Source: a virus. From it: a DNA stretch of 32,636 nt. Under the pieces are notes generated by a model. The model had not been told where the DNA came from and ran no database searches. It saw only the letters and a program-made list of their open reading frames with translations. The position numbers were made by a program, and so were the translations under genes. The stretch spans positions 1-32,636 of IMG/VR virus record IMGVR_UViG_3300048837_002347; one strand, 5' to 3'. Shown here piece by piece: positions 1,020 to 31,847 of this stretch (the stretch's first letter is position 1; the number at the start of each line of letters is the position of its first letter).

Positions 1020-3059
1020 CTTCATCATCAGCGCGCCGCGGTGGTCCTGTTCTTTGACGCCGAAGTCGATGTAGCCGCGGAACATCACGCCCAGGGTGTT
1101 GAAGTCGGCGTCGGTCTTCTCCACCGTCGGCCGGTCCACGCCGTTGAGGAAAGCGACCTCGATGGCGGGAAGCCGGTTGGGGTCGGCCAACAGGTACCAG
1201 GCTTTGTCCGAAGCGCCCGTGAAGGTGGGATTGGACAGGTAGACACTGGAGACGACCTCGAACTTGCCCACGTGCGGGTTGGTGCTGGGCTTGGGCTTGT
1301 TGGCCGTGGTGGTCTCATTGAGATTGACGCTCTTCATGAGCATCTCGGCCGGGACCTTCAGGGCTGTGGGAACCAGCAGAAGGCTGGGGCGGATGCCCAG
1401 GGGTTTGCCGTTGGGCTTGACCTGCTTGCCGAAGGAGACCTCCGCGTCCGTCAGACCGTCCACCGTCAGCGCGGTGTCCGCACCGGCCTTGTAGTTCTTG
1501 TGATCGACGTGGAAGAACGCCTTGCCGTCCGACTGGCTCGGGTTGGAGAGCCACAGGCCCCACACCGCATCGGCGATGGCCTCGGCCGCGCCCATGCCGA
1601 TCTGGCGCGGGATGTCGGTGAACGCGCCCATGTCATCGTTGATGATCATCTGCCGCGTCAGCGCGAACATGATCCCGTGCGTGTCGGCCTTCTGCCGGAA
1701 GCTCTGCTCGCCCAGCTGCCCGTGCTTCAGTTCCCCGTCGGGACCGACCTGCTGGAACTGAAACGCCCCGGTCATCCGGTAGCGGGTGTGCTCCTTGAAG
1801 TCGTTGACGGAGGCGATCTTGGCGATGCTCCGCCAGGCATCCTCGACGTAGTTGTAGCCCTCCAGCAGCATCTTGTTGGCGATGTTGGAGAGGATGCCCG
1901 GCAGCGACGCCGTGCTGAAGGCGGCCTGGAGCCAGCCCGAGGCATCACGGCGGAAGCGCGGCAGCTGCTGACCGCTGGCCAGTTCGCAGAACTCCTGAAT
2001 GCCCACACCGCGCAGTTTGTCGGCGGCTTCCAGGACCGGCTCGGCGTAGGTTGCCTGGATGCGGCTCTGGGGCAGACCACTGGCCATTAGCGCCACCGCC
2101 TCAAAGACCTGCGGACTGGCGTTGCGCGGACGGCTCGAGACCGCCGGCACCTGCGGCCGGCTGGCACGCAGCACATGCAGTTCGGTGCGGCTCTCGTCCC
2201 AACCCTCCTCGATGGCCTTGGCCTCGATGTCCGGATACTTGCCGGCGCAGACCTTGCGGATTGCCTCGATGCGCCGCGTCTCGGCGGCCATCTGCTGGCG
2301 CATCTGCGTGAGCGGGTCATCACCAGCGGCGGATGCTTGAATGGTGGAAGCAGTCGTGGTCTGCGGCTTGGGCACGGCGGGCTCCTGCGCCCCTTGCGCC
2401 GCCTGCGGGGTGGCGCTGCTTGCGGTGGTGGTGTTCGCGTTACCCGTGGCATCGCCATCAATCTGTCCCGCATCCTGCTGGGTCGGGTCCTGGTGGGTCG
2501 TGCTGGTATCGTCCATGAGTGCTTGCTCCTTATGTTGTGCAGCGATCCGAGCCGAAGTGGCCGGGTCTGCGCCGCTATCGACGAACGAGATTTCTTTGAG
2601 GATGGCCTGGCGGACCACGTGCAGTGGCCCGGCGAGGGTCCTTCCGTTGACGGTGATGCTCTGACCGTTGGGCACGAACTCGGCATCCACCACGGCCGCG
2701 CCGATACTGGCCTGCCACGGAAAGCCGTTGACGGCGCTCTTGGCCACGTCCCGCGCCCAACTGGTATCACGGCTGACCATGCCCTCGGCGATGACCTGAC
2801 CGTTTTCGATGACGACGCGCTGCGTGTGGCCGACGCCCTGACGCGGGTTGTGGTCCAGGCGGACCGGGATGTCCTGGCGGTCGATGGCAAGACCCTCCAG
2901 GTCCACCACCACTGGGTGCGGGAAGCCGGCGATGCGCATGGTCCCGCCGGTATAAGCCACCATCCGAAAACGCGGCATGGCCTTGTCGGCGTCACCCGCT
3001 GCCTCGAGGGCAATCGGGCAGCGGAACATGACGTATTCAGGCTGCTTGCTCTTCGACAT
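1008..3059 (-). CDS. Prohead protease / major capsid protein fusion
   Basis: The 683-residue product combines two head-assembly functions. Residues 1 to about 185 resemble an S78-type (HK97-like) prohead protease, with a His in the VRLDHN segment and a Ser in WQASIGA as the likely catalytic pair. ILKEISFVDSGADP closes that domain. Residues 186-330 are a low-complexity Thr/Ala/Gln linker followed by a charged helical region, which could serve as an internal scaffold. Residues 340-683 resemble the Mu gpT-like major capsid family (for example FHVDHKNY, LLVPTAL and the C-terminal FGVKEQDHRGA). Many phages encode protease and capsid separately. GGAGG stands 9 bases before the ATG, and the gene overlaps the portal end by 23 bases. 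Confidence 0.9.
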   Translation of the reverse strand: MSKSKQPEYVMFRCPIALEAAGDADKAMPRFRMVAYTGGTMRIAGFPHPVVVDLEGLAIDRQDIPVRLDHNPRQGVGHTQRVVIENGQVIAEGMVSRDTSWARDVAKSAVNGFPWQASIGAAVVDAEFVPNGQSITVNGRTLAGPLHVVRQAILKEISFVDSGADPATSARIAAQHKEQALMDDTSTTHQDPTQQDAGQIDGDATGNANTTTASSATPQAAQGAQEPAVPKPQTTTASTIQASAAGDDPLTQMRQQMAAETRRIEAIRKVCAGKYPDIEAKAIEEGWDESRTELHVLRASRPQVPAVSSRPRNASPQVFEAVALMASGLPQSRIQATYAEPVLEAADKLRGVGIQEFCELASGQQLPRFRRDASGWLQAAFSTASLPGILSNIANKMLLEGYNYVEDAWRSIAKIASVNDFKEHTRYRMTGAFQFQQVGPDGELKHGQLGEQSFRQKADTHGIMFALTRQMIINDDMGAFTDIPRQIGMGAAEAIADAVWGLWLSNPSQSDGKAFFHVDHKNYKAGADTALTVDGLTDAEVSFGKQVKPNGKPLGIRPSLLLVPTALKVPAEMLMKSVNLNETTTANKPKPSTNPHVGKFEVVSSVYLSNPTFTGASDKAWYLLADPNRLPAIEVAFLNGVDRPTVEKTDADFNTLGVMFRGYIDFGVKEQDHRGALMMKGEA

Positions 3060-4470
3060 CCCTGTCGACCTCCTCGTTTTCCTCTGGGGCGGCCGGGCGG
3101 GGCTCCTCCGTGAGCCCCAGCTCGACCATCAGCTTCTTCTCTTTGGCGCGCTGGTGGAGTTCCGTCTCCCAGTCCTTGCCCGCTCGGGCGTATTCAGCGG
3201 CAAGAGTGGTGGTATTGCTGGCCAGGCGCGTCGTCTGGGCATTGGCTTCCTTGGCGGGGTCCACGTGCTCGGTGCCGTCGAAGAACCACTGGTGGCTCGC
3301 CCCGCGCAGGTCAGGCAGGTCAAGCGCCAGCTGCGCCTCATCCAGCCAGGCTGCGAAGATCGGGTCCAGCACCGCCTCGGCCAGGTGGGCCTGCTCGACT
3401 CGGATGGACTTGTAGTAGGTCTGGTGATCCAGACGGCCGGAGGCGTAGTTGTAGCCCGAGCTATTACAGGCGGCGATGTTGTAGGGCAGGTTCAGACAGC
3501 GTGCGATTTCGTTGAGGATCTCTCGCTTGAACTCGGCGTAACTGGTCGTGGGCTGCTGGGCCTCAATCTGCCCGAGTCGCCAGCCGTCCGGCAGCACCGT
3601 GGCCATGCGCTTTTCCAGCTCGACCACGTCCATCGGCTCCAGGGCCTGGGCTTCGCCGTTGGCCGGGGCATCGGTGAACAGCACGGCGGCGAAGTCGGCG
3701 GCCGTTTCCGCCGCCGCAATGACCGCCAGCGTGTAGCGCCGCAACTGGGCAAACAGCGGCAGCGCCGGCGTGATCTCCGGGATGCCCCGGTGCTGCCCCG
3801 GCCGATCGCTGCGGAACCAGTGGATCACCGCCTCCGCCGGCACCAGGTCGTACTGCGTCTTCCAAGTCGCCAGATCGCCGGGGTGCTGGCGGAGGATGGT
3901 GTAGGTCTGTGGATTGCCCCAGGCATCGAGCGTGATGCCGTCAATGTCGCCGTCGGTGGGCAGAACCGACAGAATCGGCGACGCCACGCGGTCGGCCTCG
4001 ATGAGCTGAACATCCAGCAGCACCGGCGAATCGACGTTCGGGTTGGCGCTGAGCACGGCAAAGGCCTCGCCGTCGGTGGTCTTGGCCAGGCGCAGGGTGC
4101 GCAGCTTCTGGGCCAGCTTCACCGCCTTGGCCCACTGGCCAAATGCCGCTTCCACCTGCCGATTGGCTTTAGGGTCGTCCGTCAGCAATTGCAGACGCGG
4201 GCCGGTGCCGACGCAGTCGTTGGCGAGCGTCAGGGCGATGCCCTTGGCGTAGCTGTTATTGGCGACCTCGTAGCGGGCGCGCTGGCGGAGCGTCTTGCGC
4301 ACGTCGGCACAAGCCGCGCCATCGGCCGACAGGGCGTCGGCCATCGCCCAGTGCCGGGCGTTTTCCGCGGTGGTCTGCGCCGCGTCGAACCGCGCCCGCA
4401 GCAAGCCCGGAATCTTCGGCCAAGCCGGGAGGGACCGCTGGACCTTCCTGTCTTTGCGGAACGGCCACAT
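3037..4470 (-). CDS. Lambda-family phage portal protein
   Basis: This 477-residue protein should form the dodecameric portal ring at one capsid vertex, through which DNA is packaged. It matches the lambda-type portal family: an N-terminal ARFDAAQTTAENARHW, then RYEVANNSYAKGIALTLAND, and later GRLDHQTYYKSIRVEQ and FAAWLDEA. Length is normal for the family. The start is the ATG at 4470, which shares one base with the preceding TGA and has GGGAGGG 8 bases upstream; a TTG one codon earlier is less likely. The acidic C-terminal tail (EENEEVDRDVEEQ) overlaps the capsid gene start. Confidence 0.93.
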   Translation of the reverse strand: MWPFRKDRKVQRSLPAWPKIPGLLRARFDAAQTTAENARHWAMADALSADGAACADVRKTLRQRARYEVANNSYAKGIALTLANDCVGTGPRLQLLTDDPKANRQVEAAFGQWAKAVKLAQKLRTLRLAKTTDGEAFAVLSANPNVDSPVLLDVQLIEADRVASPILSVLPTDGDIDGITLDAWGNPQTYTILRQHPGDLATWKTQYDLVPAEAVIHWFRSDRPGQHRGIPEITPALPLFAQLRRYTLAVIAAAETAADFAAVLFTDAPANGEAQALEPMDVVELEKRMATVLPDGWRLGQIEAQQPTTSYAEFKREILNEIARCLNLPYNIAACNSSGYNYASGRLDHQTYYKSIRVEQAHLAEAVLDPIFAAWLDEAQLALDLPDLRGASHQWFFDGTEHVDPAKEANAQTTRLASNTTTLAAEYARAGKDWETELHQRAKEKKLMVELGLTEEPRPAAPEENEEVDRDVEEQAA

Positions 4471-4667
4471 CAAACGGTCCCTCCCGGCGAGAGTTTGGCC
4501 AGCTTGATGCCGAGTCCTTTCGACCGGCTGGCCTTCTTGGATTCCAGATACTTGTCGGCGGCGATCTGGTCTTCAACCGGATGCTGCTCGACAGACCCGG
4601 AATCGCCGCTGGCCTTCCGTGGCCCGGCGGCGTTGTCGCGGATGGTGTGTTGAAGGTCGTCGGCCAC
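4470..4667 (-). CDS. Small phage protein between terminase and portal genes
   Basis: This 65-residue hydrophilic protein contains QIAADKYLESKKASRSKGLGIKLAKL and a C-terminal PGGTV. Its position between the large terminase and portal genes is where lambda-like phages carry a small gpW-type head-joining protein, but I see no direct gpW match. I place the start at the GTG at 4667, with GGAG 8 bases upstream. An in-frame GTG at 4697 would give 75 residues but lies inside the 18-bp repeat and has a weaker binding site. The stop overlaps the portal ATG by one base. A phage gene is very likely; the role is inferred only from position. Confidence 0.75.
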   Translation of the reverse strand: MADDLQHTIRDNAAGPRKASGDSGSVEQHPVEDQIAADKYLESKKASRSKGLGIKLAKLSPGGTV

Positions 4668-4693
4668 GGCGTAAGCTCCGGCAAAATGCCCTG

Positions 4694-4711
4694 TCACTAG
4701 TTACCTATGCC
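4694..4711 (-). promoter_or_regulatory. Phage operon motif, copy 1
   Basis: TCACTAGTTACCTATGCC (GGCATAGGTAACTAGTGA on the transcribed strand) lies about 27 bases before the preferred start of the portal/capsid operon. Two identical copies occur at 20177 and 31729, each upstream of another minus-strand operon. Copies 1 and 2 also share the following GCCGG and, after a short gap, CGCCCCGC. The motif carries stop codons in all three minus-strand frames, so it separates transcription units cleanly. Promoter, operator or leader function is inferred. Confidence 0.65.
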
Positions 4712-4767
4712 GTGCCGGAGTGAGCGCCCCGCCGCCGCTCCGGAAAAACCCGTAGAGCGAGCAGATT

Positions 4768-4783
4768 GTTCTGTATGTAGAAC
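4768..4783. promoter_or_regulatory. Possible operator: short inverted repeat
   Basis: GTTCTGTATGTAGAAC is an inverted repeat with 5-base arms (GTTCT/AGAAC) and a 6-base spacer. It lies in the terminase-portal intergenic region about 57 bases upstream of motif copy 1. It could bind a dimeric repressor controlling the head operon. It occurs once and is short, so support is weak. Confidence 0.3.
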
Positions 4784-4905
4784 GTAACGGGGGTCCGAAC
4801 TTGGTAATCACGCGCGCTGCGGAGTATTTTGATCGGCTGCTGTGTAGATCACCCGGAAATGCCGGCAGCCTCCGCGCGCCCTTGCGATCTTCTGCGGTTT
4901 CCGAT

Positions 4906-7176
4906 TCATCTCCGCCTTCCTTGCAGGTTCGAGAGTCGCATGCGAGGCCTGCGGGGTTCGTGGCGGGCGTCAGTGCCGAAGAGCACCGCGCCCTGCATGC
5001 TCGCAGCGACGGCACAGCCGACCAGGCAGTCCAGCCAGTGGTTGTCGGTCCCGGGCGTGCGGAGCTTCCATTCCTCCAGCTCGCGCCCGCGCCCGTGGGT
5101 CTTTACGCGGTACTCGGCCGTCAAATGCTCTGAGAGCAGGCGGTGATCGTGCCCGGTGAACAATGACAGACATCCCGGATCGCCCATCGGCACGGCCAGA
5201 CGGGCGTGGACGAAGCTCTTCCAGTAGTTCGTGTCGATCAAGGCATAGCGCACCGCGCGCTTGCCGGTGATCCCGGGCACGCGCCAGTGGAGGCCCACGC
5301 GGTCGCCGCGTTTGGGTTTGTAGTCGGAGAATGGCGTCGAAGCCGCGCCGACGTAGCGCCCGTGGCTGGGCATGAGCAGTGCGCTGTGCGGGTTCTGGCG
5401 GCAGAACTGGTAGACCACGTCGGTGGAGTTGCCCCAGTTCGCGTCGATAAGGCAGCGCTCCACGCTCATCTCCGCGCCATCATCGCGGCGGTACTTGTGC
5501 ATCAGACGCTCGGTAGTCAGCGCCTCGAGCCCGGCGTAGATCGCACCTTCCTGACCGGTGCCTTTGTGAACGCCCATGAGCGTGCGCCGCACGTCGCGCA
5601 GGGTGTAGTACGCCCGCTTCTGATCCGGGTACTCCCCGTAGTCGAGCACGTAGCCGGTGAAATCCTCCTCCCAGCCGCAGACCATCCAGAACAGCAGCGT
5701 CCCCTGGACGTCGATGAACATCGTCAGGTGGTTGACGCCCACCGGCACCTCCCCGCACTTCATGCCGTTGGTCTTGGCGGCGATGGTATCGGCCGAGAGG
5801 GAGTCGCCCTCGACCTCATCGGGGAGCGGCTCGTTCTGGTATTCGGCCCAGAACGCGGCGTCGCCCTGATCGAGCTTCAGGTTCATCGCGTGCTGAATGG
5901 CGGTCAGCTCATCGGGGTTGTGGCGCTGCGGCCACGCGACGAGTGCCCCGGCGTCCATGTCGTTCTGGTTGGCGCGGTAGAACGCCGTCGCCTCCGCCAC
6001 GCCGCGGTCTGACCGCTGGCCTTCAGCCCGGAGCTGCGCGTACTGCTGCCAGAGCTTTTCGCTGGATGGGAAGGCATAGACCATCTTGGTCCGCTCACCT
6101 TGCCACTGCGGATGCTTCTCGCGATCCAGGATGCGATCGGCCATGTCGGCAGGTCTCACCACCGTAAGCGTCATGAGACCGGCAATCTTCCGCCCGGGGC
6201 CGGCCAGACCCAGGATCGCGCCTGCGAGGATCTGCTCGCGCGTGGCGCACTGGCTGGGTGAGCGCGCCGACTCGTCGGTCTGCGGGTCATCGAGCAGCAC
6301 CAGCGAGGGACGCACGGTCTTCCCGTCGGCGCGCTTGTGCTTCATGCCGCGAATGCGCCCGGTGATGCCGGCGACCTTGATGATGGCACTGGACGCGACC
6401 GAACCTTCGATGGTCGGCAGCACGATCTCCTTATTCGTCCACCCCACGTGCGTCCGCGCCCCGCGATAAAGCTGGCCGGCGGCGCGCTGGTGGATGCCCT
6501 CCAGCGCCCGAATGGGACCGCAGACCTCGGAGAAGTCCTCCTCCAGCAGGTCGTTGTTCTCCATCTCGCTCTTGATCGCGTCGAGCATGTCGGCAGCGTG
6601 CTCTTCGTCGGACCCGATCAGGGCGACGAACTCGCGGTGCCCGTAGAGCAGCGCCCACAGGCACGCCGTCTCGCACAGCGTGGTCTTGCCGCTACCGCGC
6701 GGCATGGCCATCGCGAACAGCCCGCCGTCGATAACCGCCGTTTCGATCTTCCCGATCACCTTCAGGTGATCCGGCGACCAAGCCAGGTGGAAGGTCTGCG
6801 GGAAATACGCCTCGCAGAAGCGGCGGAACGAATTCCGGCAGGCATCCTTGCGCTCGGGGTTGCGCGGTTCGTGAACCCAGCCCTCGGCGGCGATGTCGCG
6901 GGAGGATTCCGAGAGCGCTTTGCTGCGGGCGTTGACCGCGTCCTTGTGCGCTTCGTAATTGGCCTCCGTCCATCCCGGCGCAAAGTTCTCGCGCCGGGCG
7001 TGGAACAACCAAGCAGCGTAGCGGAGTAGGTCGATGCGCCGCCCGTCGCCGATCTTGTAGGCGGCGCGATTCAGATGCCGGTAGACCAGGTGCGGCTGGA
7101 CCACCTCGCCCAGGGGCGTGGAGTTCAAGAGCCGCACGGCTTCGGCCACGCGAAGTTGACGGGGATCGACCTTCAC
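4906..7176 (-). CDS. Phage terminase large subunit (GpA-like)
   Basis: This 756-residue protein is the packaging motor: an ATPase that drives DNA into the procapsid and a nuclease that cuts it. The ATPase Walker A is MPRGSGKTTL near residue 160 and Walker B is LVLLDD near residue 295. The C-terminal nuclease shows Asp residues in MFIDVQG, CLIDANW and HWLDCLVG. Length and order fit lambda GpA-like terminases. The first 60 residues contain a segment (LRVAEAVRLLNS and later LLRYAAWLF) that matches the small protein encoded just upstream. I chose the GTG at 7176, which overlaps the upstream TGA and has GGGAGG about 10 bases before it. A GTG at 7203 would add 9 residues. Confidence 0.93.
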   Translation of the reverse strand: MKVDPRQLRVAEAVRLLNSTPLGEVVQPHLVYRHLNRAAYKIGDGRRIDLLRYAAWLFHARRENFAPGWTEANYEAHKDAVNARSKALSESSRDIAAEGWVHEPRNPERKDACRNSFRRFCEAYFPQTFHLAWSPDHLKVIGKIETAVIDGGLFAMAMPRGSGKTTLCETACLWALLYGHREFVALIGSDEEHAADMLDAIKSEMENNDLLEEDFSEVCGPIRALEGIHQRAAGQLYRGARTHVGWTNKEIVLPTIEGSVASSAIIKVAGITGRIRGMKHKRADGKTVRPSLVLLDDPQTDESARSPSQCATREQILAGAILGLAGPGRKIAGLMTLTVVRPADMADRILDREKHPQWQGERTKMVYAFPSSEKLWQQYAQLRAEGQRSDRGVAEATAFYRANQNDMDAGALVAWPQRHNPDELTAIQHAMNLKLDQGDAAFWAEYQNEPLPDEVEGDSLSADTIAAKTNGMKCGEVPVGVNHLTMFIDVQGTLLFWMVCGWEEDFTGYVLDYGEYPDQKRAYYTLRDVRRTLMGVHKGTGQEGAIYAGLEALTTERLMHKYRRDDGAEMSVERCLIDANWGNSTDVVYQFCRQNPHSALLMPSHGRYVGAASTPFSDYKPKRGDRVGLHWRVPGITGKRAVRYALIDTNYWKSFVHARLAVPMGDPGCLSLFTGHDHRLLSEHLTAEYRVKTHGRGRELEEWKLRTPGTDNHWLDCLVGCAVAASMQGAVLFGTDARHEPRRPRMRLSNLQGRRR

Positions 7177-7394: not shown

Positions 7395-7400
7395 GTTTCA

Positions 7401-7488
7401 CCATCCCTAACATCTTGGAATTACTCGACTTACAGAGATTGATAGCTTGATGTTCTTGCATGGATGCCGCTGAATGTGTTCATCGAAA
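7401..7488 (+). promoter_or_regulatory. Leader/promoter repeat A (amidoligase operon)
   Basis: Four sequence blocks reappear with the same spacing at 9127-9213. They are CCATCCCTAACATCTTGG with AATTAC (7401-7424), GCTTGATG (7445-7452), GCTGAATGTG (7469-7478) and TCGAAA (7483-7488). Between the two copies the spacing differs only by one base within block 1. The copy ends just before the AAAGGAG of the amidoligase gene and lies in the divergent gap to the terminase operon. It may be a phage-specific promoter or a regulatory 5-prime leader. No clear sigma-70 -10 box is visible at normal spacing. Confidence 0.6.
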
Positions 7489-7498
7489 GGAGAAAACG

Positions 7499-8356
7499 AT
7501 GAACGCCAGCGACATGACCTTCGGAGTTGAGATCGAGACGATTGCCCCGCAAAGCGCCATCGAAAACGACGGCCTCCGGATCGGGGCCTACCACCACGGA
7601 ATCCAGGTCCCGTACCTGCCTCAAGGCTGGAAGGCCGAGCGGGATGGTTCGATCGACGCCTGCCGCGTCCCCGGCGGCCACGCCTGCGAGATTGTCAGCC
7701 CGGTCCTCCGCGGGCCGGCGGGGTTGGCCCAGGTCGCCGAGGTAGTCCGAACGCTCGAGGCCAAGGGCCACAAGGTCAACATCACCTGCGGCGTCCACGT
7801 CCACATCGGCTGGAGCCGCAACCTGCCCGCCGAGGCCTTGGCCCGCCTGGTCACCATCGTCTCCTACACCGAGAAGGGCCTCTACGCGATCACCGGCACC
7901 AAGAGCCGCGAGCGCGGAACCTACTGCGGCGGGGTTCGCAAGTACGGGAACGACAAAGACGCCAAGCCGGTCCTGGACCGCAACCGCTACCACGCCTTGA
8001 ACCTCACCAACCTGGCCAACGGCCGCAGCGAGACGGTCGAGTTCCGCATCTTCAGCGGGACGGTCAACCCGGTGAAGGTGGTCGGCTGGATTCAGGTCTG
8101 CCTGGGCCTGGTCGAACGGGCGATCAACGCCAAGCGCAGCCCGACCTGGACGCCCAAGCCGCTGCGGGGGGGATGGAAAAAGGCCGGCGAGGGCGCGAGC
8201 GAAGCCGAACGCCTGATGGGCTACCTGGCCTGGGGCGCGGGTTACGCCCGCATCCACGGGGGCATGCAGTACGGGTGGGTCAGCGACGTGATCCCGCAGG
8301 ACCAGATCAAGAGCGAGTTCCGCCGCCTGGCGGCCAAGTACGACGCCCAGAACTAA
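7499..8356 (+). CDS. Amidoligase family protein (COOH-NH2 ligase)
   Basis: This 285-residue protein resembles the Amidoligase_2 family, relatives of gamma-glutamylcysteine and glutamine synthetases that use ATP to join a carboxylate to an amine. Visible motifs are FGVEIET near residues 8-14, CGVHVHIG at 97-104, NRYHALNL at 162-169 and VEFRIFSGTVN at 180-190, which together would supply the metal/ATP-binding acidic and His residues. The start is the ATG with AAAGGAG 6 bases upstream; an earlier in-frame ATG at 7460 lacks a site. The next gene encodes a class II glutamine amidotransferase, suggesting the two act together, with glutamine as ammonia donor. The substrate is unknown. Confidence 0.85.
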   Translation: MNASDMTFGVEIETIAPQSAIENDGLRIGAYHHGIQVPYLPQGWKAERDGSIDACRVPGGHACEIVSPVLRGPAGLAQVAEVVRTLEAKGHKVNITCGVHVHIGWSRNLPAEALARLVTIVSYTEKGLYAITGTKSRERGTYCGGVRKYGNDKDAKPVLDRNRYHALNLTNLANGRSETVEFRIFSGTVNPVKVVGWIQVCLGLVERAINAKRSPTWTPKPLRGGWKKAGEGASEAERLMGYLAWGAGYARIHGGMQYGWVSDVIPQDQIKSEFRRLAAKYDAQN

Positions 8357-8366
8357 GCACGCAGCC

Positions 8367-8398
8367 GGAGCCCGGAGCGCAAAGACGCCCCGGGCTCC
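8367..8398 (+). promoter_or_regulatory. Intercistronic hairpin between amidoligase and amidotransferase
   Basis: GGAGCCCGG (8367-8375) pairs perfectly with CCGGGCTCC (8390-8398); GCG/CGC pairs can extend the stem inward. Only two T residues follow, so it is not a standard intrinsic terminator. It may attenuate transcription, protect RNA ends or set the relative output of the two genes. Confidence 0.5.
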
Positions 8399-8416
8399 TT
8401 GCAGATTGGAGTAACC

Positions 8417-9160
8417 ATGTGCGGCATCTTTGGATTTGTCACACGCCAGGGCGAGGGGCCGGAGATTGCCCGCCTCCGGCGGCTGGCACTGATCACGCAG
8501 ACGCGCGGCGAACACGCCTTCGGCCTGGCCTGGCTCGACAGTGACGGCGCGATGGAGACGTTCAAACGCCCCGGCCCTGCGCAGAACTACCTGGACGAGC
8601 TGGAGCGATGCCGCGACGCAATCATCGTCGTCGGCCATTGCCGGTACGCCACGCATGGCTCGCCGGCCGACAACCGCAACAACCACCCGCACCCCGTGGG
8701 AACCGGGCAGTTCGTTCACAACGGCGTCGTCCACAACCACGAAGATCTGATCGAGCGCTACGGCCTGCGGCCAGAGACCGAGTGCGATAGCGAGGTGCTC
8801 GGGCTGCTCATGGCGCGCTGCCCCGGCACCGCCAACCAGCGCGCGGCGTGGACGGCCAACCAGGCGCTGGGCGACTTGGCGATGCTGGCGGTGTGGCGTA
8901 AGCCAGCGCGGTTGCTCGTGGCGCGCCGGGGTCGACCGTTGCATTTCGGGCAGGGACGGGATGGATACTACTTCGGCAGCCTTCCGGATGGTCTGCCGGG
9001 CCGGGCACAGGGCGTCACAGATCGCACCAGTCGCGTCCTGGGCTACCGGGGCGGGGAACTGGCCCTGGTGGGCCAGCCGATCGCCTTGGGGCCGGGCGGG
9101 GCGGGAGTTGGCGGAGCGCAGTTTGACCATCCTAACACCTTGGAAATACAGGAATTATGA
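8417..9160 (+). CDS. Class II glutamine amidotransferase domain protein
   Basis: This 247-residue protein is an Ntn-type glutaminase that releases ammonia from glutamine. After removal of Met1, Cys2 (MCGIFGF) would be the catalytic nucleophile. GHCRYATHG at residues 73-81 binds glutamine, HNGVVHNHEDL at 101-111 supplies the Asn-Gly oxyanion hole, and CDSEVLG at 123-129 carries the substrate-binding Asp. These are the landmarks of the PurF/GlmS/AsnB N-terminal domain, but no synthetase domain follows. The partner is probably the adjacent amidoligase. GGAG lies 6 bases before the ATG. The last codons run into leader repeat B, and the final 30-40 residues look unlike a folded domain. Confidence 0.88.
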   Translation: MCGIFGFVTRQGEGPEIARLRRLALITQTRGEHAFGLAWLDSDGAMETFKRPGPAQNYLDELERCRDAIIVVGHCRYATHGSPADNRNNHPHPVGTGQFVHNGVVHNHEDLIERYGLRPETECDSEVLGLLMARCPGTANQRAAWTANQALGDLAMLAVWRKPARLLVARRGRPLHFGQGRDGYYFGSLPDGLPGRAQGVTDRTSRVLGYRGGELALVGQPIALGPGGAGVGGAQFDHPNTLEIQEL

Positions 9161-9213
9161 GCGGATTCCGCTTGATGCGTTCCCGAACGCATGGCTGAAT
9201 GTGCATGTCGAAA
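9127..9213 (+). promoter_or_regulatory. Leader/promoter repeat B
   Basis: This is the second copy of the leader found at 7401-7488. The blocks are CCATCCTAACACCTTGG with AAATAC (9127-9149), GCTTGATG (9170-9177), GCTGAATGTG (9194-9203) and TCGAAA (9208-9213). Sequence between blocks has diverged, while block spacing is kept. This copy contains a perfect 7-bp hairpin, ATGCGTT-CCCG-AACGCAT (9175-9192), that copy A lacks. It overlaps the end of the amidotransferase gene and stops before the AGGAG of the next gene. Confidence 0.6.
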
Positions 9214-9230
9214 ACGAACAGGAGAACGCG

Positions 9231-9440
9231 ATGAAGATCAACGCCAACAAGCCCGCCAAGACCCTGGACCAGATCCTGAAAGAGACCTTCCGCTTCACCC
9301 GCCGCGACCTGGCCTTCTCCTTCGCCCACCGGGCCGAGAAGGCGCTGTGGGTGATGTTGGGCGACGACGGGCGGTTCTGGGTCACCACCCCGGCAAACTG
9401 CCAGCGCCTCGAGCGGATGGGCTACGAATGGGCCGACTAA
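9231..9440 (+). CDS. Small protein of unknown function
   Basis: This 69-residue protein starts MKINANKPAKTLDQILKE and contains FRFTRRDLAFSFAHRAEKAL, then DGRFWVTTPANCQRLERMGY. It appears to be a small alpha/beta domain without membrane segments. The ATG has AGGAG 7 bases upstream, directly after leader repeat B. The larger frame that extends upstream is not the gene. I do not recognise a family; good codon use and the ribosome binding site support it as real. Confidence 0.72.
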   Translation: MKINANKPAKTLDQILKETFRFTRRDLAFSFAHRAEKALWVMLGDDGRFWVTTPANCQRLERMGYEWAD

Positions 9441-9464: not shown

Positions 9465-9734
9465 ATGCGTACCACGCGAATCGAACTCGACGGAGATGCC
9501 GGACACCTTTCTATCCAGCGCGAGCGCGGCAGCCGGACGATCCGGATCGACTCGATCATCCGCGACCCGAAGCGTGGCCAGCAGGCCTGGAAGAGTTGGG
9601 AGCTCGACGCTGCCGTCAGCGACGAGGACCTCTTCAAGGTCGCCATCGAAGTGCAGTTCCGCACCGACGGCGGCACCGGCACCAACAGCATGATCCACGA
9701 CTTCTTCCGCGAGATGCAGCGGTTCCAGGACTAA
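9465..9734 (+). CDS. Small hypothetical protein
   Basis: This 89-residue protein is dominated by alternating hydrophobic and charged residues (MRTTRIELDGDAGHLSIQ, then SRTIRIDSIIRDPKRGQQ), which suggests a beta-sheet domain. A helical C-terminus (MIHDFFREMQRFQD) follows. AAGGA stands 8 bases before the ATG, and the gene lies 24 bases after the previous stop in the same operon. No family is recognised. Confidence 0.7.
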   Translation: MRTTRIELDGDAGHLSIQRERGSRTIRIDSIIRDPKRGQQAWKSWELDAAVSDEDLFKVAIEVQFRTDGGTGTNSMIHDFFREMQRFQD

Positions 9735-10679: not shown

Positions 10680-12050
10680 TTAGTGGCCCTCCGCAGCACC
10701 CACCCCAGCCAACGCGGCTGGGGTGTTCTCCGGCATGTCCGTTCCCGCCGTGTCCGTCGCCGTCATTCGCCGGGCCTTCTTCCCGCTGAACTTCTCCCAG
10801 CGCTGCACGATCACATCGCAATACAGCGTGTCGAGTTCCATCAGGAAGGCGTTGCGACCGGTCTGCTCGGCGGCGATCAGCGTCGAGCCCGAGCCGCCAA
10901 ACAGGTCCAGCACGTTCTCGCCCGCCAGCGAGGAGTACTGCATCGCCCGAACCGCCAGCTCGACCGGCTTCTCGGTCAGGTGGACCATCGACTGCGGGTT
11001 GACCTTCTTCACATGCCAAAGATCGGTGACGTTGCTGGGTCCGTAGAACTTGTGGCCCGCCCCTTCCTTCCAGCCGTAGAACGCGATCTCGAACGCGCCC
11101 ATGAAATCCTTCCTGGTCAGCACCGGATGCTGCTTGTCCCACACAATCCCCTGGCTGAAGTACAGGCCGTTCTTCTTGAGGAACGGCGGGTAGTTGCCCA
11201 GATTCGCGTAGCCGCCCCAGATGTAGAACCCGCGCCCGTCCTCCAGCACCCGCGCCATATTGCCGAACCAGGCGTCGAGCATCTGATCGAAGGCCTCGTC
11301 GGAGACGAAGTCGTTGGCCAGCGGGCGGTCCTTCGCGCGGAGTTTCTTCTGGGTAGGCTTGGCCTTGCCGGGGTGGCGCTCGACGTCGAGCTTCTGGTGG
11401 TGGGTCGTCTCGAACGAGGAGAGACCAGCCGCGATGGCGTTGTTGCTGCGCGGCTCGACCTTCACGTTGTACGGCGGGTCGGTGTTGACCAGGTGGATCG
11501 TCGCGCCATCGAGTAGGCGGTCCAGATCCGCGGGCTTGCTCGAGTCGCCACACAGCAGCCGGTGGTTGCCGAGAATCCACAGGTCGCCCGGCTGCGTGGT
11601 CGCCTCGTCGGGCGGCGCGGGGATGTCATCGGGATCGGTCAGGCCCTGCTCCACGTCGCCGGACATGATCCGCTGGAGCTCCTCCTGGTCGAACCCCAGC
11701 GTCTCAATGTCGAAGTTCATCCCCTGCAGCGCCGAGAGTTCAATGGGCAGCAGTTCGTAATTCCATTCGGCGATCTCGTTGGTCGCGTTGTCGGCGATGC
11801 GGTACGCTCTAACCTGCGCCGGCGACAGGTCGGTCGCGACATGCACGGGCACCTGCGCGAGGCCCAGCTTCTGCGCGGCCTTGAAGCGGGTGTGGCCGAC
11901 GATGATCACGCCCTCGGCGTCCACCACGATGGGCTGGCGGAACCCAAATTCCTTAAGGCTCGCCGCCACCGCGTCCACCGCCTCATCGTTCTGGCGCGGG
12001 TTGCCGGGGTAAGGCTTGACCTGGTTGATGGGACGAAGTTCGATCTGCAT
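10680..12050 (-). CDS. ParB-like domain / DNA methyltransferase fusion
   Basis: This 456-residue protein begins with a ParB/sulfiredoxin-like nuclease domain (residues 1-110; PYPGNPRQND, then GVIIVGHTRFKAAQKLG). It continues into an N6-adenine/N4-cytosine methyltransferase with DPPYNV at 191-196 and LDLFGGSGSTLIAAE near residue 400. The catalytic motif precedes the SAM-binding motif, the beta-class order. Such fusions are common in phages and methylate phage DNA, often without a cognate nuclease. The ATG at 12050 has AAGGAA 8-9 bases upstream; the frame further upstream is low-complexity and not part of the gene. It is the last gene of the minus-strand replication block. Confidence 0.9.
   Translation of the reverse strand: MQIELRPINQVKPYPGNPRQNDEAVDAVAASLKEFGFRQPIVVDAEGVIIVGHTRFKAAQKLGLAQVPVHVATDLSPAQVRAYRIADNATNEIAEWNYELLPIELSALQGMNFDIETLGFDQEELQRIMSGDVEQGLTDPDDIPAPPDEATTQPGDLWILGNHRLLCGDSSKPADLDRLLDGATIHLVNTDPPYNVKVEPRSNNAIAAGLSSFETTHHQKLDVERHPGKAKPTQKKLRAKDRPLANDFVSDEAFDQMLDAWFGNMARVLEDGRGFYIWGGYANLGNYPPFLKKNGLYFSQGIVWDKQHPVLTRKDFMGAFEIAFYGWKEGAGHKFYGPSNVTDLWHVKKVNPQSMVHLTEKPVELAVRAMQYSSLAGENVLDLFGGSGSTLIAAEQTGRNAFLMELDTLYCDVIVQRWEKFSGKKARRMTATDTAGTDMPENTPAALAGVGAAEGH
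10701..10725 (+). terminator. Probable terminator of the plus-strand operon
   Basis: CACCCCAGCC (10701-10710) and GGCTGGGGTG (10716-10725) form a perfect 10-bp stem with an AACGC loop. TTCTCC follows on the plus strand. It lies 28 bases past the stop of the HARE-HTH gene, inside the last codons of the convergent methyltransferase gene. The T-tract is poor, so termination strength is uncertain. Confidence 0.5.
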
Positions 12051-12536
12051 ACACAATTTCCTTTCACGAAAGAAAGTCAGTTGCCGACGGTGATTGTTCC
12101 CGCGGCCATCTCCGGCCGCAAGCGCCAGGGAGGAACCGCTCCCCCCGCCCCCCTCGGCCATTTCCCTGCCACTTTGGCACCCCCACGCCGTTGGCCCCAG
12201 GGCGGGGACGAGACGCGGTTGGGCCGGATGGCCAAGGCGCTACAACGGACGCGACGTGGGCCAACACGTGGCCAACGGCGCGTACCCGTGCGGGCACGCC
12301 CAGGGGGTGGTGGGCAGCGCCGAGTCTTCTTTCACCTCTTTCACCACCCCCCTCACACACACACGCCCAGATACGCGGGCGGGCGTCGCGCGAGGGGATA
12401 GAGGTGAAAGAGAGAAAGAAGAAGAGAGAGTTGTTGTTTCTTCCTATATATGGGCTTTTCCGCAGGCCAACTTCTTTCACCTTGCCGGGGTGAAACAAGG
12501 GTGAAGAAGGGTGAAGCATGGCGGGCTTGGCGGTGT
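12051..12536. other. Intergenic region with iterons; no gene seen
   Basis: This 486-base gap separates the primase gene from the methyltransferase gene. It holds CA-rich and GA-rich low-complexity runs, an AT-rich patch (TTCTTCCTATATATGGGC near 12439-12456) and most of the TTTCACC/GGTGAAA iterons. A 158-codon minus-strand frame crosses it, but its product is low-complexity, rich in Ser, Pro and Arg, and is not credible. The combination of iterons, an AT-rich patch and an adjacent primase suggests a replication or control region. Confidence 0.6.
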
Positions 12537-24366: not shown

Positions 24367-26478
24367 TCAGTCAGAGACCGCTCCGTTCGACTCAATAAAC
24401 GCCTCTCGTCGGAGCGCATCGAGAGCACGGCCCGCCCGCTGCTCTGCGGCAACGGCCTTCGCGCGGATGCTCTCCAGCCGCCGGCACAGTTCGGCAAACC
24501 GGCCCTGCAACTCGTGATGATGCGGCACAGGGATCGGGATCTTCGCAAGCTGGTCGTAGTACAGCCTGAACCGCACGCTTCCCTTGGTCTTCTTGTTGAT
24601 CTCGTGTCGTCCGGCTTCGCTACGCAGGTAGTGGTAGACGTAATCAGGCAACAGCCCGGACTTGCAGCGGAAGACGACATAGTCGGGACTTGTGATGCCG
24701 GTCTGTGCCTGAGTGAGTGCCACACCAATCGACCCGATGTTGATTCGCATGGGGTTGTACGCAAGGTATCCCCGTCTCACGAGCTTATATGCCGAGGGCT
24801 TTGCGCCGATGCGGCCCTTGGGATCGCAAAAGCCGTCCGTGTTCGAGACCCCCAAGAGCCTCACGTCCTGCGAGTACTGCGCGCCGATCCGCTCATCGCA
24901 CTCCTCGGTCAGTTCGCCAAGCAACCTCTGAGGGCTGTCCCGAAGTTCACGCAGCACTGATTCGAACGTCTCCGCCACATGCTTCACATCGCCGAGCACA
25001 TCGCCCAGTTCCCTGCAAAGGTGAGAAAGGTTGCGTTCGGTGGAATCAATCTCCGCCAAACTGAGTCTGGGGTTCTTTAGGTCCAGGTTGACGTGTTCAT
25101 CTAACTGGTCAACGTTGACGGTCCAGGTCTGGGGAGATTCGGTTCGCCGCGACACCGCCGCGACGAGCGGCTCGATCCATTCGTACCGCAGCGGCTTGGT
25201 CTTGCTCAGGGCAACGCCCGCGGGAATCGGCGGCTCGCAATACAGAATACTCTTGGTCGGCCCCGATCTATCGAAGAAGACAAGGTTGGTCGTGATGTCG
25301 GTGTATGGCGCGAACACGTTATGCGGCAGACGCACGATGGTGGTGACGTTGAATTCACTGAGCAGCGCACGCCGAATACTGGCCGCCACGCCTGGTGCGG
25401 ACAAGGTGCCGTTTGGAACAACGACGGCCGCACGGCCAGGCCGGGGATCGCGCTTCAACTTTCGCATGATGAGCTGAAGGAACAGCAGCGCTGTCTCGGA
25501 TGTCTGCTTGTCAGCGGGGAAGTTGCCCCGGATGCCCGCCTCCTCCTCGCCGCCAAACGGCGGGTTGGTCAGGATTACGTCCACACGATCCTTCTCGCCC
25601 AGTTCGGTGATCTTCACCGCCAGGCTGTTCCCGTACTCGATGGCTGGGGCATCCAGCCCGTGAAGCAACAGGTTCATCTGCGAGAGCATGTACGGCAGCG
25701 GCTTCGCCTCGCCGCCGCGAATGCTCTGCTCTTGGAGCACCTTGCGGTGCTGGACGGTTTTGCACTGCTTCTCGAGGTGAACGAATGCCTCGGCCAGGAA
25801 GCCGCCCGTGCCGCAGGCGGGATCGAGCACGACCTCGCCGAGCTGCGGGTTGGTGACAGCGACCATGAACTGGATCACCGGGCGCGGCGTGTAGAACTCG
25901 CCGGAGTCGCCGGCGGCGTCGCGCATTTCCCGCAGCATCGACTCGTACAGCCGGGCCAGGGTGTGGATTTCCTCGGAGGAGTCGAAGTGGATGCCGTCGA
26001 TGAGGTTGATCACATCGCGCATCAGATAGCCGGAGATCATGCGGTTGATGACGCCGTCAAACACCTTGGCGATGACATCGCGCCGCCGATCGCCATTGGT
26101 CGATTGCAGCGAGCGCAGATAGGCCAGCAATCCCGGCCCGCGAGTACCGCTGGGCCGCACAGCCTCATCCTGGTTGACGAAGGCAATCAACTCGTCGCCG
26201 GTGATGCCTTGCTTGTTCGCGGCCCAGTCGCGCCAACGATATGGGGCTTCGATGGCGGACTTGTACTTCTTGCCGCCGATCCCGGCGCGGGTCTCCTCGA
26301 GCTTCTCGCGGTCGTCGAGGAACTTCAGGAACATGATCCAGGTCAGCAAGGGGAGGCGATCCAGATCGCCGTTAAGCCCCTTGTCCTTTCTCATGATGTC
26401 GCGGGCTGATTTGATAAGCGTTGACAATTGCTGTGCCGTCGTTTTGGGTTGCTCGGTCTTGGTCTGTTTCTTTGCCAT
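24367..26478 (-). CDS. Type I-like HsdM methyltransferase fused to a half HsdS
   Basis: This 703-residue protein combines modification and specificity functions. Residues 1-165 are the HsdM N-terminal helical domain (LLTWIMFLKFLDDREKLEE). The methyltransferase core has LDPACGTGGFLAEAF at 218-232 and the catalytic NPPF at 305-308. After about residue 480 comes one target-recognition domain resembling HsdS (VRLLGVSNTDGF, GYLAYNPMRINIGSIG, YDQLAKIPIPVP). A coiled helix follows (AELCRRLESIRAKAVAAEQR). Normal HsdS has two such domains. With one, the enzyme would probably dimerise and recognise a symmetrical site. HsdR lies 27 bases upstream. No separate HsdS gene is visible. Confidence 0.9.
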   Translation of the reverse strand: MAKKQTKTEQPKTTAQQLSTLIKSARDIMRKDKGLNGDLDRLPLLTWIMFLKFLDDREKLEETRAGIGGKKYKSAIEAPYRWRDWAANKQGITGDELIAFVNQDEAVRPSGTRGPGLLAYLRSLQSTNGDRRRDVIAKVFDGVINRMISGYLMRDVINLIDGIHFDSSEEIHTLARLYESMLREMRDAAGDSGEFYTPRPVIQFMVAVTNPQLGEVVLDPACGTGGFLAEAFVHLEKQCKTVQHRKVLQEQSIRGGEAKPLPYMLSQMNLLLHGLDAPAIEYGNSLAVKITELGEKDRVDVILTNPPFGGEEEAGIRGNFPADKQTSETALLFLQLIMRKLKRDPRPGRAAVVVPNGTLSAPGVAASIRRALLSEFNVTTIVRLPHNVFAPYTDITTNLVFFDRSGPTKSILYCEPPIPAGVALSKTKPLRYEWIEPLVAAVSRRTESPQTWTVNVDQLDEHVNLDLKNPRLSLAEIDSTERNLSHLCRELGDVLGDVKHVAETFESVLRELRDSPQRLLGELTEECDERIGAQYSQDVRLLGVSNTDGFCDPKGRIGAKPSAYKLVRRGYLAYNPMRINIGSIGVALTQAQTGITSPDYVVFRCKSGLLPDYVYHYLRSEAGRHEINKKTKGSVRFRLYYDQLAKIPIPVPHHHELQGRFAELCRRLESIRAKAVAAEQRAGRALDALRREAFIESNGAVSD

Positions 26479-26505: not shown

Positions 26506-28869
26506 TCATGCGGCCGCGTAAAGCAGGGATTGAAGTTGGTTCACCGCATCGCGCAATTGCGCGACATCCCCAAACTTGCCGGCGATCTCGATCACATTGC
26601 CGTGACTGTTGATCGGCGGCAGTTCGAGGACATCGGGCACGACAAACTGCGCCGTGCCGTGTTCGGTGTACTTGTCCAGCAGTTCGTTCAGGATCTGCCG
26701 GGCCTCGGGGCCGTATTGGTCGAAGAAGTCCTGCCGCTCGGCGCGCAGGCGCTGGGCGCGCTCCCGCCGCGTGCGCAGCGGCGCGTTGAACGCCAGATGG
26801 CAGAGCAGGTCCAAGGGGTCGGCGTCAGGCTGGTTGGCGGCCTCGGCCAGGTGGTCGAAGTCGATGCCGCGCTCCTCCAGCCGCTCGATGATCCCGCGAC
26901 GCTGCTCTGGGTCCGCCCACTGACCACGCAGTTCGGCCGCATTGCGATACAGCGTCCGCACCTTGTCGGCGGTGTAGTCGGTGAACTGGACCACGCGGAG
27001 CTGGTTGCCATCCGGGTCAAGCTCGTACACCAGGTGCGCGGCGACCTCGACGCGTCCGCCGTCAAAGTAGAACTTGCGCCGTGGCCCATCTTCGGTGTCC
27101 GGCGGCAGTTCAACCGGTCCCTCGTCGCCATCGGGTTCTTCCTCGGGCGTGACGACCGTTTCGTCGCTGGTTGGCTCGCCGCTTTCGTCAATCGTCTGTT
27201 CCGTCTCGATGTTCGGATCGCCATCGAAGTCGGGATCGGCGAAGAGACGTGTGGCCGAGCCGGTGTAGTCGAGGATGCTGAAAAACAATTTGCCGTAGTC
27301 ATCACGAACGCGCGTGCCGCGCCCGATGATCTGCTTGAACTCCGTCATCGAGTTGATGACCCGCACCAGCACGATGTTCTGCACGGTGGGCGCATCGACG
27401 CCAGTGGTCAGCAACTGCGACGTGGTGACGATGACTGGCGTGCGGCGCTCCAGGTCCTGGAAGTTGCTCAGGTGCCCACGTCCCAGGTCGCCTTCGTCGG
27501 AGGTGATGCGGCAGACGTAATCCGGATCGTCGCGCACCAGGTCGGCGTTCAGGTTGTTCAGCGCCCGCCGCATCTCGTCGGCGTGCTCCTGATCGACGCA
27601 GAACACGATGGTTTTGGCGAATCGGTCAGTGCGCCGCAGGTAATCGCTCAGGTGTCGGGCAACCGCCTCGGTCCTGGCCCGCAGCGACACGCGGCGCTCG
27701 AAATCATTGGTGTGGTATTCCTCGTCCGGTATCTCCCGCCCGAACCGGTCCAACTCTCCCTGGCTGGGTCGCCAACCCGCTGCATCCCAGGTGGTCACCA
27801 CGCGATGGACGCGGTACGGGGCCAGGAAGCCGTCGTCGATCCCCTGGCGGAGGCTGTAGGTGTAGATCGGGTCGCCAAAGTAGTTGTAGGTGTCCGCGTT
27901 GTCCTGCCGGCGCGGCGTGGCGGTCATGCCGATCTGGACCGCCGGCGAGAAGTACTCGAGTATCTCTCGCCAGTTGCCATCGTCGCGGGCGCTGCCGCGA
28001 TGGCATTCATCCACGATGATCAGGTCGAAGAAGTTGGGAGGGTATTCGCGGTACAGGCCGGGGCGGTTGGCGTCCTGGGCGATGGACTGGTAGATGGCGA
28101 AGTACATCTCGCGGCTGGTAACGGCCACGCCATTGGCAATCTTCCAGCGGGCCTCGCCGAAGGGCGCGAAGATCTTGGCCATCGGATCATCAACGAGGAT
28201 GTTGCGGTCGGCCAGGTAGAGGATGCGCGGCCGCCGGTGTTCGCCGGTGCGGTTCCACCGCGACGACCACAGCTTCCAGCAGATCTGGAAGGCCACGACG
28301 GTCTTGCCGGTGCCCGTCGCCATCGTGAGCAGGATGCGCTGATCGCCCTGCGCCACGGCCTGGACGGCGCGGTTGATGGCGATCTCCTGGTAGTAGCGGG
28401 GCGACTTGCCGCTGAGGTGATAGGCGGGGGTCAGCAACGTCTCAGCGTCGCCCGTGGTGAGCGACTCGCTTGCGGCCAGGCGCGCGAACAACTCTGCGGG
28501 CGTGGGGAACGCGTCGATCTGGCGTTCCAGACCGGTCGTGTAATCGAACTCGACAATGCCGCGGCCGTTGGTCGCGTAGGCGAACTTCAGGCCAAGGATT
28601 TCAGCGTACTCCTTGGCCTGCTGCAGCCCGTCGCCTGGCGTCGCGTAAGTGGCCTTTGCCTCGACGACCGCGATGGCGAAATCAGGGCGATACCGTAGAA
28701 TGTAATCAGCACGTTTGCCCGGTCGCCGACGACCGCGCCGGCCCGCGACGATAATCCGCCCATCGGTGAACGTCACCTGCTCGTTGATCCGATGCGGATC
28801 GGTATCCCACCCGGCGGCCTGAAGCCGGGGGACCACATAGCGACGGCATGTATCGGCTTCATTGGGCAT
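26506..28869 (-). CDS. hsdR: Type I restriction endonuclease subunit R
   Basis: This 787-residue protein is the DNA-translocating nuclease. The N-terminal nuclease carries Asp55, Asp63 and the ExK pair in AVVEAKAT (Glu70, Lys72). The SF2 motor has ATGTGKT at 184-190, VDECHRG at 286-292 and MTATPRR near 310. Further motifs are VIVTTSQLLTTGVDAP and IGRGTRVRDDYGK. An acidic insert near residue 570 (EEEPDGDEGPVELP) and a C-terminal helical region follow, as in EcoEI-type R subunits. The ATG at 28869 has only a weak ribosome binding site. It is the first gene of the operon, downstream of a sigma-70-like promoter. Confidence 0.92.
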   Translation of the reverse strand: MPNEADTCRRYVVPRLQAAGWDTDPHRINEQVTFTDGRIIVAGRRGRRRPGKRADYILRYRPDFAIAVVEAKATYATPGDGLQQAKEYAEILGLKFAYATNGRGIVEFDYTTGLERQIDAFPTPAELFARLAASESLTTGDAETLLTPAYHLSGKSPRYYQEIAINRAVQAVAQGDQRILLTMATGTGKTVVAFQICWKLWSSRWNRTGEHRRPRILYLADRNILVDDPMAKIFAPFGEARWKIANGVAVTSREMYFAIYQSIAQDANRPGLYREYPPNFFDLIIVDECHRGSARDDGNWREILEYFSPAVQIGMTATPRRQDNADTYNYFGDPIYTYSLRQGIDDGFLAPYRVHRVVTTWDAAGWRPSQGELDRFGREIPDEEYHTNDFERRVSLRARTEAVARHLSDYLRRTDRFAKTIVFCVDQEHADEMRRALNNLNADLVRDDPDYVCRITSDEGDLGRGHLSNFQDLERRTPVIVTTSQLLTTGVDAPTVQNIVLVRVINSMTEFKQIIGRGTRVRDDYGKLFFSILDYTGSATRLFADPDFDGDPNIETEQTIDESGEPTSDETVVTPEEEPDGDEGPVELPPDTEDGPRRKFYFDGGRVEVAAHLVYELDPDGNQLRVVQFTDYTADKVRTLYRNAAELRGQWADPEQRRGIIERLEERGIDFDHLAEAANQPDADPLDLLCHLAFNAPLRTRRERAQRLRAERQDFFDQYGPEARQILNELLDKYTEHGTAQFVVPDVLELPPINSHGNVIEIAGKFGDVAQLRDAVNQLQSLLYAAA

Positions 28870-28981: not shown

Positions 28982-29374
28982 TTAATCTCGCATAGCTTGC
29001 CGCCACATCTTCCGCTGCCGTCGCCAATCTTTCAGCCGTGTGATCGGCCGAAGATCACGCTCGGTGATGGGATCATCGCCCGCTTCGACCGGCTGCAGGT
29101 GTAGCAACTCCTCCTGGATGTCCGGGGCCAGATGCCGCAGGTTCATGATCTGCGTCATGCGCGGCTGGGTGACATGAGCCAGACGGGCCAGCTCCGACTG
29201 GTCCGCGACCTTGCCCTCGAAGAGCAGTTGGTCAAAGCGGATCGCCAGCGCCATGAGCTTGGAGACGCGCGGAATGCGTCCGACCGGCGCTACCGGTTCG
29301 GGGGCTGGGCCTGGCATCGCAACCTTCCGCCGTGCCTTTCTGGCGAAATGAATCTGCCTCGTAACGGTAGTCAT
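28982..29374 (-). CDS. HTH protein associated with the serine recombinase
   Basis: This 130-residue basic protein starts MTTVTRQIHFARKARRKV. It contains a helix-turn-helix at about residues 50-90 (VADQSELARLAHVTQPRMTQ, then NLRHLAPDIQEELLHL), followed by LRPITRLKDWRRQRKMW. Very similar small proteins commonly sit directly downstream of large serine recombinases in prophages and islands. They may act as directionality factors or regulators, though function is not established. The gene overlaps the recombinase stop by 4 bases (ATGA). Confidence 0.85.
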   Translation of the reverse strand: MTTVTRQIHFARKARRKVAMPGPAPEPVAPVGRIPRVSKLMALAIRFDQLLFEGKVADQSELARLAHVTQPRMTQIMNLRHLAPDIQEELLHLQPVEAGDDPITERDLRPITRLKDWRRQRKMWRQAMRD

Positions 29375-30939: not shown

Positions 30940-31445
30940 TTCTGGACTCCCAGCCTGAAGAAGCGGTAGCCGTTCATGTGGCTGCCGGTGATCTTCTTGG
31001 TGAGCGCCGACAGGGTGCGGAATCGCTCGCCGTTGCACTCAAAGGTTCGGCCGTCCTCGAGCACCACGGCTCGGATGGTGCGGCCCTTGTAGACGCGGAC
31101 GAGCGCCGATCCGGGCGGCGGGAGGCGGGGGTCGTTGGGGCGATCCCGGCCCGCCGGGGCGGGCTGCGTCACCGTTACCATCTCGCCGACCTGCGGCGGG
31201 CAGATCATGGTTTTGGGGGCCATGACGCGGATGTCGGCGTCGTTGGCGAGTTCCTTGGCCCGTTTGCGGGCACGCTCGGACAAGTCGCCCTCGGCGTTGG
31301 CCTGAATCCGCCAGGCGACCTTGCGGATGAGGTAGGCCCGATGGCGGGTCCGGCAGGGCTGGCCGTGCAGCTCTCGGTAGCGCTCGGCCAGGTCGCCCGT
31401 GCTCATGCGGTCCAAGGCGGCGATTTGGTTTCCAACGTCGTGCAT
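30936..31445 (-). CDS. DUF2924 family protein
   Basis: This 169-residue protein fits DUF2924. The N-terminal part has MSTGDLAERYRELHGQPCR and YLIRKVAWRIQANAEGDLS. The C-terminal part has GSALVRVYKGRTIRAVVLED, FECNGERFRTLSALTKKITG and NGYRFFRLG, which looks like a small DNA-binding beta domain. DUF2924 genes are regularly found just upstream of large serine recombinases in prophages, so an accessory role in integration is likely but unproven. The stop overlaps the recombinase ATG. Confidence 0.9.
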   Translation of the reverse strand: MHDVGNQIAALDRMSTGDLAERYRELHGQPCRTRHRAYLIRKVAWRIQANAEGDLSERARKRAKELANDADIRVMAPKTMICPPQVGEMVTVTQPAPAGRDRPNDPRLPPPGSALVRVYKGRTIRAVVLEDGRTFECNGERFRTLSALTKKITGSHMNGYRFFRLGVQK

Positions 31446-31746: not shown

Positions 31747-31847
31747 ATTTGCGCGAGGCGCGCCCACTTCCGTTAACCGCATGAGGAGGGTTATAGTCTG
31801 TCCCATGAAATGTGATTGCGGTTCTCTACACGGCACGGAGGCCAGCC

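Follow-up and report, generated by a model that had tools for sequence, protein, structure and literature searches.

We propose that two neighbouring plus-strand genes of a virus together probably encode a two-component, glutamine-dependent amide synthase, a reading that draws on sequence and on structure models. They lie in a 32,636-nt stretch of DNA, here called the window, which scans of its main genes with PHROG and Pfam identify as an incomplete phage genome. The first gene, AML (7499–8356), encodes a PF12224 amidoligase of 285 aa, and the second, GAT (8417–9160), a stand-alone class II (Ntn) glutamine amidotransferase domain of 247 aa with an N-terminal Met-Cys. The sequence-only reading had described a phage-borne two-gene module that would make amide bonds with glutamine-derived nitrogen and that runs opposite to the structural and replication genes, a description with which the sequences, the predicted folds and the linkage of the two genes agree.

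Sequence and predicted structure of the two proteins

AML begins with an ATG at 7499, behind a ribosome-binding site (GGAG, 7489–7492), and its stop codon ends at 8356. The protein matches Pfam PF12224 (Amidoligase_2) with E=2e-23 and 84 bits, where the curated cut-off is 22, and PHROG 2443 ‘amidoligase enzyme’ at 1e-33. The amidoligase motifs noticed earlier are kept in its relatives: GxExE (E11, E13), E64, GxHxH (H100, H102), R163 and ExR (E181, R183) show little or no variation among 25–34 sequences. No solved structures related to AML by sequence were found. In a Foldseek search, its AlphaFold2 model (pLDDT 93.9, pTM 0.93) matches GlnA (4lnn, E 1.1e-5), YbdK (1r8g) and Dop, the E values being 1e-5 to 8e-4 and the TM scores by query length about 0.34–0.51 and mostly 0.40–0.51, which is moderate and a match at the level of the fold only; it also matches phage amidoligases, including that of Arthrobacter phage Salgado. 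The predicted fold is thus of the glutamine-synthetase type.

GAT starts with an ATG at 8417, preceded by GGAG at 8408–8411, and its stop ends at 9160. It matches PF13522 (GATase_6) with E=9.5e-12 and 45.5 bits against a cut-off of 27, and its sequence also matches the glutaminase domains of GlmS and PurF. The class II landmarks first listed from the sequence (Cys2, Arg76, Asn102-Gly103 and Asp124) are borne out, since C2, R76, H101-N102-G103 and D124 are unchanged in 38/38 aligned sequences and line up with the HxRxAThG, vHNG and D landmarks of GlmS from E. coli (4amv/1xff). The AlphaFold2 model (pLDDT 88.4, pTM 0.86, only the last 17 residues being of low confidence) resembles the glutaminase domain of E. 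coli GlmS in isolated form (1xff; E 6.4e-14, TM 0.70), and a GlmS/PurF-type glutaminase fold is predicted. Structure prediction therefore places both proteins in the classes expected of them. GAT is not a full GlmS, as it scores 80 bits against a TIGR01135 cut-off of 418; the C-terminal sugar-isomerase domains of GlmS are absent from its 247 aa, the GlmS match stopping at residue 188.

Pairwise dN/dS was computed against two planctomycete relatives, a prophage of 88% identity and L041. The values are 0.07 (217 codons) and 0.13, respectively, for AML and 0.17 and 0.22 for GAT. Because the whole range is 0.07–0.22, both genes are under purifying selection, that is, selected as proteins.

Linkage of amidoligase and amidotransferase across phages

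We examined 80 viral relatives of AML, 11 of which are cut off by a contig end. Among the 69 non-truncated relatives, 39 have GAT downstream on the same strand. The gap between the two genes at these 39 loci has a median of 64 nt, with 26 gaps of 20–115 nt and 18 of at most 40 nt. One of the 80 has its GAT adjoining a second AML copy, and none of the 80 loci carries a fusion of the two genes. On the AML tree the pair appears at four or more positions, namely two groups of planctomycete phages, Arthrobacter phages and the PaP3/LUZ24 type, and the phage backbones that carry it differ, one being a 192-kb record. The association is therefore real, conserved and repeated on different phage backbones.

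Another 29 of the 80 relatives, a sister clade with AML in the same place, have no GAT nearby, and none was found anywhere in 18 whole records of this clade (up to 107 kb). AML without a detected GAT is also found in phages of Firmicutes and Porphyromonas. In the midpoint-rooted AML tree, the AML-only group (36 members including sequences truncated by contig ends, support 0.71) neighbours a GAT-linked group of 10 (support 0.97), while the GAT-linked group of 32 that includes the window lies outside both. Because the 29 sister-clade relatives have AML without GAT nearby, the pair is not obligate, and AML function does not in general depend on GAT. The earlier prediction of a two-part enzyme consequently stands as far as same-strand linkage, sequence and folds are concerned, but not as an obligate pairing.

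Where both genes are present, their distances are correlated (r 0.86 over 25 dereplicated pairs, matched in 0/2000 permutations), as would also be expected from plain co-inheritance. What the data show directly is the two genes with their catalytic residues, the folds predicted for them, the purifying selection on both, their closeness on one strand and their correlated divergence. Clustering of the neighbouring ORFs, among which high GC creates many shadow ORFs, gave no third partner clearly recurring across groups; in the close group the recurring neighbours are only the HARE-HTH, terminase, portal and ParB-methylase genes. One relative, L014, has two amidoligases, at 2689–5748 (minus strand) and 5998–6879 (plus strand): a 457-aa amidoligase with a C-terminal extension shares its strand with GAT, and the copy on the other strand is without GAT.

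Proposed reaction and alternatives

Enzymes of the glutamine-synthetase fold activate a carboxylate with ATP as an acyl-phosphate, which is then attacked by an amine. In the reaction we propose, GAT would lose Met1, leaving Cys2 as the N-terminal nucleophile, and would split glutamine into glutamate and ammonia. AML, with its GxExE, E64, GxHxH and ExR motifs and its predicted glutamine-synthetase-type fold, would receive this ammonia and, using ATP and Mg2+, would activate a carboxylate as an acyl-phosphate and convert it to an amide. We infer this reaction, a physical or functional complex of AML with GAT, and ammonia as the nucleophile. In line with earlier proposals for phiEco32 and RIO-1-type phages, the most likely target would be a carboxylate of host cell-wall peptide or its precursors, and the role may be to keep further phages out of a lysogen or an infected cell; no cell-wall genes lie beside the pair in the window. 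Three papers (PMC5498523, PMC10580990, PMC11318856) have already suggested that side chains of peptidoglycan are modified and that superinfecting phages are excluded, the peptidoglycan proposals citing the 2009 amidoligase survey (Iyer et al.). In the accessible parts of the literature, we found no experiments on the single enzymes of these phage gene sets and no phage amidoligase with a demonstrated substrate.

A somewhat unlikely alternative is that AML joins to its target not ammonia but an amino acid, a peptide or a polyamine, in the manner of GCS2/YbdK, PafA and gamma-glutamyl ligases, and that GAT, as a glutaminase or amidohydrolase, provides glutamate or strips off groups derived from glutamine. 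The many phages with AML and no GAT fit this alternative, as do the matches of the AML model to YbdK and Dop and the occurrence of EgtC, an Ntn amidohydrolase, among the structure matches of GAT. Furthermore, a gamma-glutamylcyclotransferase gene lies near AML in the AML-only phages Geobacillus GR1, C75C1 and Bacillus 031MP004, which points to gamma-glutamyl chemistry. However, no such gene (PF06094) was found in the window or in eight related records, and the best matches of GAT are ammonia-supplying amidotransferases (GlmS and PurF), which counts against this alternative.

It is quite unlikely that the pair is an auxiliary metabolic module feeding host nitrogen or amino-acid metabolism, as has been proposed for the planctomycete phage ZRK32. 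That phage is reported to promote growth with nitrate or ammonium, and the genes are named in this connection (PMC10945688), although tests of individual genes were not found in the available part of that paper. Class II glutaminases moreover consume glutamine, and the AML family consists of carboxylate-amine ligases, not central nitrogen enzymes. Modification of a phage or host protein or of DNA during host takeover, a role also offered by the sequence-only reading, is very improbable: the pair does lie apart, in a same-strand block that also encodes a HARE-HTH protein, but scanning the main genes of the incomplete window with PHROG and Pfam revealed no base-hypermodification gene, and the DNA methylases of the phage resemble ordinary methyltransferases.

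Related systems

The novelty first claimed for the pair was overstated, as the pairing of AML with GAT in phages has already been published. Such pairs are known from LUZ24-like, OM43 and planctomycete ZRK32 phages in publications, and from Arthrobacter phages in annotations. The peptidoglycan-modification cassette of phiEco32, RIO-1, LUZ24/PaP3 and related podoviruses (PMC5498523) also has an adjacent amidoligase and class II GATase, which in PaP3 are orf46 and orf45. The full phiEco32/LUZ24-type cassette adds a COOH-NH2 ligase, an ATP-grasp enzyme and a gamma-glutamylcyclotransferase, none of which was found in the window or in eight relatives. The COOH-NH2 ligase (PF14395) was not found in the incomplete window or in eight relatives by a search that did recover it from PaP3 and ZRK32 as a positive control, and PaP3 orf43 (ATP-grasp) as query had no match in nine records, in a search run without a remote-homology control.

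Phage-ZRK32, which infects the planctomycete Poriferisphaera, likewise has an amidoligase and a glutamine amidotransferase (PMC10945688). Unlike the window, it is of the full-cassette type, with genes for a COOH-NH2 ligase, a glutathione-synthase-like protein and a cyclotransferase, and its GAT, of about 508 aa, is 28% identical to that of the window. In the Arthrobacter phages Edmundo, Ottawa and their relatives (Laroyevirus, cluster AL), a PF12224 amidoligase is similarly followed directly by a class II glutamine amidotransferase, but the identity to the window pair is only 26–32% and the hosts differ; a gamma-glutamylcyclotransferase has been reported beside the pair in cluster AL (PMC5513430). 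A pair of PF12224 and PF13522 proteins is reported (PMC10580990) for the OM43 phages MEP401 and MEP402 and their metagenomic relatives, which we liken to the window from the published description and which belong to another phage lineage with a different host.

MurT/GatD of Staphylococcus aureus (PMC3267633) is alike in principle, being a ligase with a separate glutaminase that amidates a carboxylate. The folds differ, however: MurT resembles Mur ligases, and AML is predicted to be of the glutamine-synthetase type. GatD is a glutaminase of the class I type. As the predicted fold of AML is not that of a Mur ligase and GAT is class II, the pair was not assigned to the MurT/GatD system.

Phage amidoligases are widespread, with about 500 matching stretches in viral contigs in one profile-based scan. 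What sets the present pair apart is the reduced two-gene form and the natural contrast with AML-only sister phages, which together make a simple system for finding the substrate and the nitrogen donor.

Changed positions in the AML-only sister clade

Position 102 of AML is T in 29/29 sequences of the AML-only sister clade and H in nearly all GAT-linked ones. The clade has fixed H102T, N171H and T179R, so that one conserved position loses a His and another acquires one. We rejected the idea that H102T marks GAT loss in general, as the AML-only phages of Firmicutes and Porphyromonas keep HxH; from the alignment, it is a clade-specific change that represents one event at most. Because those other AML-only phages retain the histidine, the contrast between AML with GAT and the AML-only clade is a lead and not a result. 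A combined scenario, in which temperate planctomycete phages such as this one carry a minimal two-gene, glutamine-fed module for amidation of the cell wall or of peptides and the sister clade lost GAT along with H102T, N171H and T179R, is unlikely as a whole. If it were true, GAT loss together with the AML changes would mean that the sister-clade ligase switched its amine donor.

Downstream of AML in L105–L138, which are without GAT, the translated strings AWLMCV and MAHVCH recur before many small genes, which suggests a short repeated leader. Such a leader is perhaps like the start-associated sequences of some mycobacteriophages. An element resembling it is found in the window near 9187–9203.

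Organization of the plus-strand block

The pair belongs to a plus-strand block between the terminase operon and the ParB-methylase gene. GAT is followed on the same strand by orf9231 (9231–9440), a small protein that is 95% identical in L043 (the 88%-identical prophage), then by another small protein (9465–9734), a DUF6900 protein (PF21841; 9747–10031) and, as the last gene of the block, a HARE-HTH domain protein (PF05066; 10131–10673) that is commonly near AML in related phages. As had been proposed, the block has its own leader, at about 7395–7498 between AML and the divergent minus-strand orf7173. A second copy (about 9121–9230) overlaps the end of GAT and precedes orf9231. The two copies, matching between about 7395–7488 and 9121–9213, are 71% identical over 98 columns, with a local score of 40 against at most 16 in 500 shuffles, and by sequence comparison they are diverged copies of one sequence. 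The leader also precedes AML in close relatives and may carry a promoter, though no sigma-70-like site was found. A scan with a short leader motif, allowing two substitutions and gaps, was too loose and was discarded for its chance matches.

The hairpins suggested earlier are represented by a strong one at 8367–8398, between the AML stop and the GAT start (z -3.3, with 0/200 shuffles as stable), which is not followed by a T-run. It is kept in L043, while L004 and L041 have other hairpins instead, that of L041 being followed by a T-run. A role for the hairpin as a general regulator was rejected, as it is not conserved and most close relatives have gaps of 13–27 nt and no hairpin. The terminator ascribed to the block found no support, no intrinsic terminator being found on the plus strand.

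The phage and its host

The left of the window holds, on the minus strand, genes for head-tail joining and cement proteins, capsid/protease, portal and terminase; the middle holds ParB-methylase, primase, helicase, RusA, SSB, a Sak4-like annealing protein and an exonuclease; and the right holds a type I restriction-modification system and a serine integrase. In a scan of bacterial genomes, AML relatives were found only in Planctomycetota MAGs. One of these hits, contig C11 (342 kb) of a Phycisphaerales MAG, contains the prophage L043, with about 88% DNA identity over window positions 7703–31844. The serine integrase and this prophage together identify the window as a temperate phage of Planctomycetota. 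At the phage edge lie the integrase and a DUF2924 protein (29374–31445, minus strand). C11 continues past the point that matches window position 31844, and the stretch of it examined, up to 37 kb, is without further similarity to the window; the end of similarity may correspond to the attachment site or the prophage border.

The type I restriction-modification system beside the integrase is compact (24370–26478 and 26509–28869, minus strand), in which one protein combines an N6-methylase of the HsdM type with a specificity half (MTase_I 1e-169, Specificity_I 7e-26) and the other is a type I restriction enzyme (2e-230). Adjoining the AML-GAT block, a ParB-like domain is fused to a DNA methyltransferase (10680–12161, minus strand; phrog_498, 5e-127), and this protein is very conserved in relatives, mostly at 65–86% identity.
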